The notes below the pieces were generated by a model. That model had not been told where the DNA came from, searched no databases, and worked only from the letters and a program-made list of their open reading frames with translations. A program made the position numbers and the translations under genes. This document shows positions 19,126 to 22,097 of a DNA stretch of 64,000 nt, one piece after another. Where the stretch lies: the NCBI GenBank assembly GCA_018970725.1, contig JAGWVU010000005.1:62001-126000 (forward strand), in the 5' to 3' direction. Source of the DNA: Verrucomicrobiota bacterium. GTDB taxonomy: Bacteria > Verrucomicrobiota > Verrucomicrobiia > Verrucomicrobiales > DEV007. The stretch's first letter is position 1; each line of letters opens with the position of its first letter.

Positions 19126-19974
19126 TCAACGGGTCGAGCGCCCGGACGCTGGTGCCGGCGGACCGGCCAGCTCCAAATGGTCGGGGCGTTCCGCGGTTCC
19201 GCGGACCCGGAGGTGGCCCAGACAATACTCCAGCATCGCCTCGCGGACCCGGAAGCGCAATTGCCCGCCTTCCATGCCGTAATCCCGTTCAATCGTCCGG
19301 CGCTGCGCCTCGTCCAGCGTCTGGTTCGGCACCAGCACGACATCGAGGAAATTCTCCCAAGCCGCATCGCGAACCTCGGGATGAAACGCGGCCCCCGGCC
19401 ATTCGGCACGCTCGATCCGGCTTAAAACAAAATCCTTGTAACCCGATTCCTCAAAACACCAGGCCCGCACGTGCCAACGATAACCATCATGCCCCAAGGC
19501 CTGCGGGGCGATTTCCCGGACCGAGTTCCGGCTGCTCCGGACCGACCAATACCGGATCCGCACACGACGGTGATGGAGCAGGGCTTGGAACACGTGCCGC
19601 TCCACCACCGCGGACGCCTTCCGCATCGGGGCCACCGAATGGTCCACCAGACTCCCCGGCTCCCCCGCGCCAAACACCGGAGCGGGGGCCGTTTCCCCGA
19701 GAAACTGCCGGATCGCCTCCTCCAACCGCGGCTGGTGCAAGACGCAGGTCATCCCGGCGGACGACTCATAGCGTTTCGCGCTCCCATTGTAAGCCAGACT
19801 CCCCGGGTTCATCTCCAGATACACATGGAGATCACCGGAAGCCTGCGCCGTCGAGATACCGAAAACGTCACGCAAGTCGCTCCGATTCACCGAACCACGC
19901 CACCAGGCGACCCTCTCCACGAAAGCGAGACGCTCGCGCACGGCCCACTGATCGGGGTTGCTTACATTGCCCAT
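19126..19974 (-). CDS. WYL-domain transcriptional regulator (BrxR/CapW-like)
   Basis: A 282-residue protein. A winged-helix DNA-binding domain (about 15-90, with SVNRSDLRDVFGISTAQASGD as the recognition region) is followed by a WYL domain (about 125-195) and a C-terminal WCX-like extension. The WYL segment reads GYRWHVRAWCFEESGY then KDFVLSRIERAEW, the form seen in BrxR/CapW-type regulators. These regulators control BREX, CBASS and other defence genes and are thought to sense nucleic acid or nucleotide ligands. The gene is divergent from the cas4-cas1 gene with a 189-bp control region rich in dyads. It probably represses both transcription units. The assignment as its regulator is inferred from position. 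Confidence 0.88.
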   Translation of the reverse strand: MGNVSNPDQWAVRERLAFVERVAWWRGSVNRSDLRDVFGISTAQASGDLHVYLEMNPGSLAYNGSAKRYESSAGMTCVLHQPRLEEAIRQFLGETAPAPVFGAGEPGSLVDHSVAPMRKASAVVERHVFQALLHHRRVRIRYWSVRSSRNSVREIAPQALGHDGYRWHVRAWCFEESGYKDFVLSRIERAEWPGAAFHPEVRDAAWENFLDVVLVPNQTLDEAQRRTIERDYGMEGGQLRFRVREAMLEYCLGHLRVRGTAERPDHLELAGPPAPASGRSTR

Positions 19975-19989
19975 TCCAAGAATTCTACG

Positions 19990-20101
19990 TCGTTTCAGTT
20001 GACGAATCGTAACCTACGACGGATTCAGAAGGCGTCGTGTTTTACGATACAGTCTTGTTTCAAGACGAAAAAAGACCTCGAATGTTCAAATTGTCAACAT
20101 T
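19990..20101. promoter_or_regulatory. Array of dyad operators between WYL gene and cas4-cas1
   Basis: Three inverted repeats share the half-site TCGT/ACGA: 19990-20005 (8-nt spacer), 20007-20019 (5-nt spacer) and 20035-20047 (5-nt spacer). They are followed by GTCTTG-TTT-CAAGAC at 20052-20066 and AATGTT-N9-AACATT at 20081-20101. The region is more AT-rich than its surroundings. WYL regulators of the BrxR type bind palindromes in their own divergent promoter, so autoregulation is the simplest reading. Which dyads are bound is unknown. Confidence 0.6.
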
Positions 20102-20163
20102 TCCGATCTTCTTTTGCCCGCCGCCCTGAGGAGGTCGGGTCGTTGTTCCTCCCGTTTTTTGCC

Positions 20164-21792
20164 ATGATTGCCCCGCTCCAACCTCCCCCGGGCCATGAAT
20201 TCCCCGCCTCCGTGCCGCCCGACTGGGCCACGGTGGAGATGCTCGGGCATTACGCCTATTGCGCGCGTCGTTTCCACCTGATGGATGTCGAGGGCCCGGA
20301 GTCCCCGCCGTCCCTGGGCCAAGGGCTCCATCTGGCCGACGAAGAGCTCGGTCTGACCGGCCACCTTGAGCTGATCTCCCCCGAGCCGGTCGGTGGCCAT
20401 GCCATTCCGGTCCTCCACAAGCCGGGTCCGGCCCCACAGAACGGCACCGGCACGTATCTCCCCGAGCGCGTCCAGTTGATGGCCCTAGGCCTTTTGCTGC
20501 GCCGGAATGGCTACACCTGTGATCACGGTTTCGTGCTCTACGCCGCCGACCGGACCCGGATCCGGGTGGACTTCGACACGGCGCTTGAGGCGCGCACCCG
20601 CAAAATCATCCGCATGGTCCGGGCCGGGCGCGGCCAGAACCGGCTTCCCGCGCCCCTCGACGACAGCCCGAAGTGCTGGGGGTGCTCCCTCAGCGGAATC
20701 TGCCTTCCGGACGAGACCCGGCGGCTTTGGGACGAGCCCGCTCCCGGGGAGGGCTCCGCCGGACCGGAGCCCCGCCGCTTTTTTCCCGCCCGGGAGCCCG
20801 GGATCCCGTTCTACGTTCAAGAGCAGGGAGCGCGGGTCGTCCGGAACGGGCAGCGCCTCATCGTCACGAAAGGAGGCGCGATCCTTGGGGAATCCCGCCT
20901 TCGCGACCTCAGCCAGCTGGTTCTCTTCGGGAACGTGCAACTCTCGCCGCCGGCCCTGCATCTCCTCCTCGAGCGGGGAAAGCCGGTGGTGCATTTCTCC
21001 ACCGGCGGCTGGTTCTTCGGCCTGAGCCAGGGCAACGGCGTGGAGAGCGCCCAGGTCCGCGCGGCGCAATACGCGGCGGCCGCCAGCAAGGAGACCTGCG
21101 GCCGATTCGCCGCCGGATTGCTTTGGGCCAAGGTGCTGAACCAACGCGCCCTCCTGCAACGCAACGGGACCGCGGAAGCGGCCGAAGGCATGTCCCGCCT
21201 GCTCCGGGACATGGATCCCTCCGCACCGTGCCCACCCCAGGGTTTGGGCCCATGGGAGGAGCAGGCGGCAATCCTCTATTACGGCGCCTTCGCGTCAATG
21301 CTCACGGCCGGGGATTGGCCCGGATTTGACTTCGCCCGCCGCCATCTGCGTCCGGCCCCGGATCCGGTGAGCGCGCTGCTCGGCCTGGCCTGCGCCCTGT
21401 TGGTCAAGGAATGCGCCGTGGCCCTCTGGAGCGAGGGACTGGACCCTTGGTGGGGACTGCATCACCGGCCCAGACAGGGACGCCCCGCCTTGGCGCTCGA
21501 CTTCATGGAGCCGTTCCGGCCCCTGCTGGCGGACAGTGTGGTCCTCACCGCCGTGAACTCGGGCCTCGTGAAGGCGTCGGGCTTTGCGCAGACCTCCACC
21601 GGCTGCGCCTTGAAGCCCGCCGCGCGCAAAGCCCTCATCAGAATCTGGGAGCAGCGGCTGGACCAACTCTCCACCCATCCGGAGTTCGGCTACCGATCCT
21701 CCTGGCGCACCACCCTCCGCCTTCAGGCCCGGCTCCTCGCCAGATTCCTGCAAGGTGACATCACCACGCTTCCATGGCCGCTCGCCCGTTGA
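20164..21792 (+). CDS. cas4-cas1: Cas4-Cas1 fusion protein
   Basis: About 542 residues. Residues about 15-190 are a Cas4/RecB-like domain with one cysteine in YCARRF (near 32) and three more in KCWGCSLSGICLPDE (about 170-183), the set that binds an iron-sulfur cluster. The part from about 215 to the end is Cas1, the CRISPR spacer integrase, with a glutamate in WEEQAAILYY (near 364), histidine in GLHHRPRQGRPALALDFME (near 433) and the Asp/Glu that follow, matching the Cas1 metal site. Fusions of this kind belong to type I-G(U) and V-B adaptation modules. By eye, the Cas4 nuclease E-x-K motif is altered (PVLHKPG instead of PvEyKrG). No Cas3, Cas8, Cas12 or array is found nearby. ATG at 20164 is chosen. 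Confidence 0.92.
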   Translation: MIAPLQPPPGHEFPASVPPDWATVEMLGHYAYCARRFHLMDVEGPESPPSLGQGLHLADEELGLTGHLELISPEPVGGHAIPVLHKPGPAPQNGTGTYLPERVQLMALGLLLRRNGYTCDHGFVLYAADRTRIRVDFDTALEARTRKIIRMVRAGRGQNRLPAPLDDSPKCWGCSLSGICLPDETRRLWDEPAPGEGSAGPEPRRFFPAREPGIPFYVQEQGARVVRNGQRLIVTKGGAILGESRLRDLSQLVLFGNVQLSPPALHLLLERGKPVVHFSTGGWFFGLSQGNGVESAQVRAAQYAAAASKETCGRFAAGLLWAKVLNQRALLQRNGTAEAAEGMSRLLRDMDPSAPCPPQGLGPWEEQAAILYYGAFASMLTAGDWPGFDFARRHLRPAPDPVSALLGLACALLVKECAVALWSEGLDPWWGLHHRPRQGRPALALDFMEPFRPLLADSVVLTAVNSGLVKASGFAQTSTGCALKPAARKALIRIWEQRLDQLSTHPEFGYRSSWRTTLRLQARLLARFLQGDITTLPWPLAR

Positions 21793-21803
21793 ACGACGCC
21801 CCC

Positions 21804-22097
21804 ATGCCAGACCGCAGGTTTTATCTCTGCAGCGGAGAGGTGGCGGATCAAACGAGGCGGGCGCGCCTCGCCGCTCTGCTTCAAGTTCATGGGGACCAGT
21901 TGCACGGCCTCGTCTTCATCTGTGCGCTCAACGCCCGGGAACAGGAGGGCCTCGCCAACGCCGCGACCACCATCCTCGACCCGGCCGAGGACCAGCTCCT
22001 CTTCGTGGACTTCGGACCAGAGACGCTCAACTGGACCAACGGCCTCGCCGCCATCGGCAAACCCTGGTCCCCCGTCATTCGCTCACGGATTGTGTGA
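21804..22097 (+). CDS. cas2: Cas2-like protein
   Basis: A 97-residue protein starting 11 bp after cas4-cas1. The order RRFYLCSGEVADQTRRARLA, then a GLVFICALNAREQEGL segment and ILDPAEDQLLFVDFG, follows the Cas2 ferredoxin-like pattern (usually YDI..D.kRr..v, then vF.c.l, then D.vr.y.l). Cas2 is the structural partner that bridges two Cas1 dimers during spacer integration. The first-strand aspartate (YD) expected in canonical Cas2 appears replaced by Cys-Ser. That residue is needed for nuclease activity but not for integration in well studied systems. Length and position support the call; similarity is modest. Confidence 0.72.
   Translation: MPDRRFYLCSGEVADQTRRARLAALLQVHGDQLHGLVFICALNAREQEGLANAATTILDPAEDQLLFVDFGPETLNWTNGLAAIGKPWSPVIRSRIV

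Follow-up and report, generated by a model that had tools for sequence, protein, structure and literature searches.

Surveys report stand-alone CRISPR adaptation modules, and whether such modules are debris or serve a function is the question raised by a locus in a verrucomicrobial draft genome. This genome (G000; 4.9 Mb, 108 contigs, 96.5% complete) encodes, within the 64,000-nucleotide stretch analyzed here and referred to as the window (C89:62001-126000), a WYL-domain transcription regulator divergent from a Cas4-Cas1 fusion (Cas4/1) and a Cas2 (Table 1), an arrangement recognized in the original prediction and borne out by Pfam, NCBIfam and PADLOC models. It had also been claimed that the window lacks interference genes and spaced repeats; indeed, we see no effector genes among the open reading frames surrounding the module and a repeat scan finds no CRISPR array in the window. 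The description of the locus as an isolated and separately regulated adaptation module stands. The locus provides a testable case because it is found in two species with a common deletion, there are active type I-G outgroups, and the source genome carries two more truncated cas1 relics; these relics, the loss of the Cas4 active site and the changes in Cas2 all go beyond what was predicted.

Table 1. Features of the module and its left flank, in window coordinates.
Feature	Coordinates	Strand	Evidence and remarks
Conserved left flank, DAHP synthase to sulfatase	11052..19104	.	Fixes the chromosomal site of the module
WYL-domain transcription regulator, 282 aa	19126..19974	-	PF13280, 47.1 bits; divergent from cas4/1
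Divergent promoter and putative operator region common to WYL and cas4/1	19975..20163	.	Comparison with G002
Cas4/1 fusion, 542 aa	20164..21792	+	PF01867, 224.9 bits; PF01930, 28.8 bits
Cas4 domain	20221..20733	+	Retains four cysteines; RecB nuclease motifs are degraded
Cas1 domain	20806..21789	+	E365 (21256), H434 (21463) and D446 (21499) kept
Divergent Cas2, 107 aa	21774..22097	+	PF09827, 24.9 bits; PADLOC Cas2g is the best model

Descent from a type I-G system

Homologues were sought in 142 relatives and in GTDB contigs, and the closest is in a second species of the same genus (G002, contig QQNE01000033.1), which has the identical three-gene set at the identical site. The two genomes are colinear over 11.1 kb with 76.9% DNA identity, from the DAHP synthase gene to the cas2 stop codon, at which the homology stops; the DAHP synthase and sulfatases of the left flank are assigned by Pfam. 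The orphan form is carried by these two species, both of which are draft assemblies, G002 being 81% complete. In a third genome of the genus (G001) the left flank is present and the module is absent; beyond the syntenic sulfatase G001 has a gene with TIR and FGE-sulfatase domains (L187:47-1087).

The next-closest homologues (55-60%) lie in type I-G loci. Where contigs are long enough, these run from csb1 through csb2, cas3 and a Cas3-extension or csx17 to cas4/1 and cas2, with 36-nt repeats forming an array at the end; in some of them a WYL gene is divergent from csb1. The module resembles these verrucomicrobial relatives in its divergent WYL gene and in the overlap of cas2 with cas4/1, which is 19 nt here and identical in G002 and three I-G relatives. 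It differs from complete I-G systems in that it has no csb1, csb2, cas3 or csx17, and no array of 36-nt repeats beside cas2. Several verrucomicrobial I-G operons have a Fic-domain gene between the effectors and cas4/1 (L046:2421-3416, L049:1129-2109, L106:8026-9006).

The best NCBIfam model for Cas4/1 is cas4g_cas1g, with a score (507 bits) that is under the cut-off of 560. In a 90-row tree the Cas4/1 proteins of the window and G002 form one clade (SH-aLRT 100), which is nested on long branches within the verrucomicrobial I-G Cas4/1 proteins (SH-aLRT 98). An AlphaFold2 model of Cas4/1 (pLDDT 82.6, with the iron-sulphur cysteine stretch at residues 166-183 under 50) superposes on 7mi4 across 488 residues (Z 41.5) and likewise on 7mi9, the full integration complex, with an rmsd of 1.8 A (Z 42.2). 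The domain order is that of known I-G adaptation modules (the Geobacter sulfurreducens 7MI4 family and MbCas4/1, PMC10504553), and the fold is shared with the 7MI4 family, with 40% identity over the aligned part. By the sub-cut-off model match, the tree and the structure, the module thus pairs a Cas4/1 of I-G lineage with a Cas2. The original prediction had left its origin between types I-G and V-B; the model, the tree and the neighbours of the homologues support I-G, and V-B falls away, since V-B-like Cas4/1 proteins form a separate clade in the same tree and a Cas12b query (a putative 1375-aa protein of G046) finds nothing in either G000 or G002.

Among genomes of the same family or order, three loci (L056, L057, L058) have Cas4/1 beside an open reading frame of 1340-1458 aa and an array, and are probably type V-B. 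A cas4/1-cas2 pair in Phycisphaerae KatS3mg104 (L138:9941-12040) has no I-G effector match or array within 10 kb, and its Cas4 motif I looks intact; at L169 and L173 Cas4/1-Cas2 adjoins long arrays, with no I-G effectors within 10 kb.

The original prediction raised the prospect that related genomes would carry the effectors next to these genes, as after a recent deletion. No recent deletion is indicated: a deletion in a single genome is ruled out by the presence of the module at the identical site in G002, and since two species share the loss at this site it is not recent. Because the WYL-cas4/1 junction is colinear and the damage to Cas4 is common to both species, the simplest account places the effector deletion before the two species diverged. 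The module is therefore what is left, on the adaptation side, of a type I-G system whose interference genes and array were lost before the species split, with both the origin and the effector loss common to the two; the WYL, Cas4/1 and Cas2 genes would thereafter have been passed on vertically as a three-gene unit. A mobile or viral origin was also considered and rejected, as there is no relative in IMG/VR contigs and the plasmid matches are all below 60% identity.

Stand-alone modules in which cas4-cas1-cas2 have survived a deletion of effectors, and which branch within their own subtype, are described in the accessible part of PMC5704561, and the module is of this known kind, as cas4/1-cas2 genes without effectors at the locus, nested in the I-G branch and derived from that subtype by deletion. 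It extends the accounts given in that part of the source by its predicted loss of Cas4 catalysis, its loss of an array, and the conservation across species of a three-gene unit with a regulator. It is a variant of the published type: a conserved orphan with its regulator, array-free, under selection and, judged from its sequence, Cas4-nuclease-dead.

Effectors, arrays and cas1 relics elsewhere in the genome

A search of the source genome for a complete I-G or V-B effector locus at another position found none. Models of Csb1, Csb2 and Csx17 (TIGR02570, TIGR04113, TIGR02165) detect their targets in genomes with intact systems but none in G000 or G002, and Cas3_core has only sub-cut-off matches in G000. 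The array pattern ATTGAARC is found 0 times in G000 and G002, compared with 28 in G001, 24 in G003 and 57 in G067, and a tolerant repeat search finds none in G000 or G002 versus 34 and 63 single repeats in G003 and G067 respectively. A de novo repeat scan of 1.66 Mb of G000, including one end of most contigs, finds tandem repeats only; repeat candidates on C12, C13, C46, C68, C80 and C99 are, by eye, ordinary tandem repeats and not arrays.

Two other cas1 loci in G000 are in frank decay. The first (C50:22659-23706; L005:12659-13706) is a truncated I-G relic in which a cas1 C-terminus (97% aa identity to that of the I-G system in G001) and an intact cas2 (95%) are accompanied by a conserved leader and one 36-nt repeat identical to the G001 array repeats. 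This solitary repeat is the only one found in G000 and derives from a different I-G lineage; the Cas4/1 of that lineage and that of the module share only about 35% identity. The second (C77; L004:1-1400) is a cas1 that lacks its 5' end and lies at the edge of a contig, with an apparent cas2 frame after it and no effectors.

These observations bear on the suggestion that the module writes spacers into a distant array, as a conventional adaptation module would if it worked in trans on an array within an assembly gap or on the solitary leader-repeat of C50. Stand-alone modules and trans-acting Cas1-Cas2 are described in PMC5704561 and PMC12596717, G000 does have one leader with one repeat of the G001 type, and the Cas1 ligands appear intact. 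It nevertheless seems unlikely, since neither G000 nor G002 yields a type I-like array or any effectors that could use new spacers, the C50 repeat belongs to that other lineage with no second repeat beside it and is absent from G002, and the nuclease motifs predicted to serve Cas4 trimming have been lost.

Changes in the Cas proteins and selection on their genes

The module departs from I-G adaptation modules in the loss of its Cas4 nuclease motifs and in a diverged Cas2. Among 92 aligned Cas4/1 proteins the motif III acid is Asp or Glu in 90/90 others, Leu (residue 84) in G000 and Met in G002; motif I (GKxxH) is deleted or scrambled, and the motif II Asp is changed to Glu at residue 69, with the four cysteines retained. 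Lacking the motif I His, the motif II Asp and the motif III Asp/Glu-x-Lys of an active Cas4 nuclease, the domain is predicted to be nuclease-dead. In the I-G protein MbCas4/1, the Cas4 and Cas1 active sites have been mutated separately (E101A and E375A respectively), and Cas4 products are not seen with E101A, nor Cas1 products with E375A (PMC10504553).

The Cas1 Glu, His and Asp ligands, first recognized by eye, hold up on alignment: E365, H434 and D446 are invariant over 34 aligned proteins, E365 is found in 89/89 other homologues, and together they make up a putative metal site. A different column of the helix in Cas1 (E/T/D/A) was considered as the catalytic Glu and rejected as variable, in favour of the invariant WEG-motif Glu, E365. 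The residue that follows it, 366, is Gly in 89/89 others and Glu in both orphan species, a change that might affect Cas1 activity as well. In Cas2, the CTYDV of I-G proteins is CSGEV here and CAHEV in G002, which includes an Asp-to-Glu change, and a 4-residue deletion is common to both species.

Comparison of G000 with G002 gives dN/dS values for Cas4/1, WYL and Cas2 of 0.213, 0.103 and 0.282 (NG86) and of 0.071, 0.051 and 0.117 (GY94), magnitudes that are rough because dS approaches saturation. Each of the three genes rejects neutrality (p 1.6e-10 or lower), as does the Cas1 domain alone (GY94 0.09). Over 1626 aligned nt cas4/1 has 501 differences with zero stops or frameshifts, whereas random placement of 501 differences introduces a mean of 12.4 stops and a minimum of 3 (2000 trials). 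The reading frames of the three genes have thus been kept under purifying selection. In an active I-G pair (G067/G033) the corresponding values (NG86/GY94) are 0.068/0.025 for Cas4/1, 0.066/0.046 for Cas2 and 0.144/0.080 for WYL; against this pair, constraint has relaxed 2.5-4.7-fold in the orphan Cas4/1 and Cas2 without disappearing, and shows no relaxation in WYL.

This relaxation, the lost Cas4 motifs, the long tree branches and the decay of the C50 and C77 loci are what would be expected of a functionless relic, in which the adaptation genes are slowly eroding and purifying selection acted only in the past. We think this improbable, if marginally less so than action in trans. Because effector loss predates the species split, all of the divergence between G000 and G002 accumulated in the orphan state, and over that divergence cas4/1 has acquired no stops or frameshifts, neutrality is rejected for three genes of three, and the regulator and the WYL-proximal side of the putative operator are conserved.

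The reading that we prefer, with a probability of about 0.55, is that this is an orphaned I-G adaptation module, a WYL-controlled Cas1-Cas2 complex with a nuclease-dead Cas4, kept for some purpose outside I-G immunity. Cas4/1 and Cas2 would still form an integrase-like complex in which the Cas4 domain is structural, without nuclease action, and which would no longer write spacers selected by PAM; the Cas1 active site could work on DNA ends that are short or branched, serving the host outside I-G immunity, for example in repair or in the trapping of foreign DNA fragments. Since the genes are still selected despite the lost Cas4 active site, another job for the integrase is probable, and an operon that is selected while losing its Cas4 spacer-trimming residues suggests that a CRISPR integrase has taken on a different role. 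From the selection that continues after effector loss we infer a function beyond I-G immunity, and a role other than CRISPR immunity, one of the possibilities originally raised, is favoured on the same grounds.

More tentatively, and at somewhat below even odds, the CRISPR integrase may have been domesticated, with a WYL-regulated, nuclease-dead Cas4/1-Cas2 that has neither array nor effector being selected across species for a function in the host, for instance DNA-end repair or array-free defence. The proposed endpoint, Cas1 acting outside spacer acquisition, is like that of casposases and of an archaeal Cas1 linked to DNA repair in a non-CRISPR role, as described in the accessible part of PMC9051519; these differ in not being orphan Cas4/1-Cas2 operons, and repair is hypothetical here.

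The WYL regulator and the intergenic region

The WYL protein shares 79% identity with its G002 orthologue; against the WYL proteins encoded divergently from csb1 where the I-G locus is complete, identity is 41-44%. Its dN/dS is the lowest of the three genes (0.10/0.05) and is unrelaxed relative to the active pair (0.14/0.08), as would be seen if WYL were selected for some other target with cas4/1-cas2 as passengers. This we regard as very improbable, as the Cas1 domain alone (p 3e-43) and Cas2 (p 1.6e-10) each reject neutrality.

The WYL protein probably binds the intergenic region, a putative operator through which it would control the divergent cas4/1-cas2 operon. No alignment is obtained between the intergenic region of the orphan module and the promoter of csb1 in I-G relatives. 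Identity to G002 is concentrated on the WYL-proximal side (58/80 columns versus 23/53 on the distal side), and three intergenic hexamers are conserved: CGTCGT (19988), ACGACG (20016) and CGTCGT (20033).
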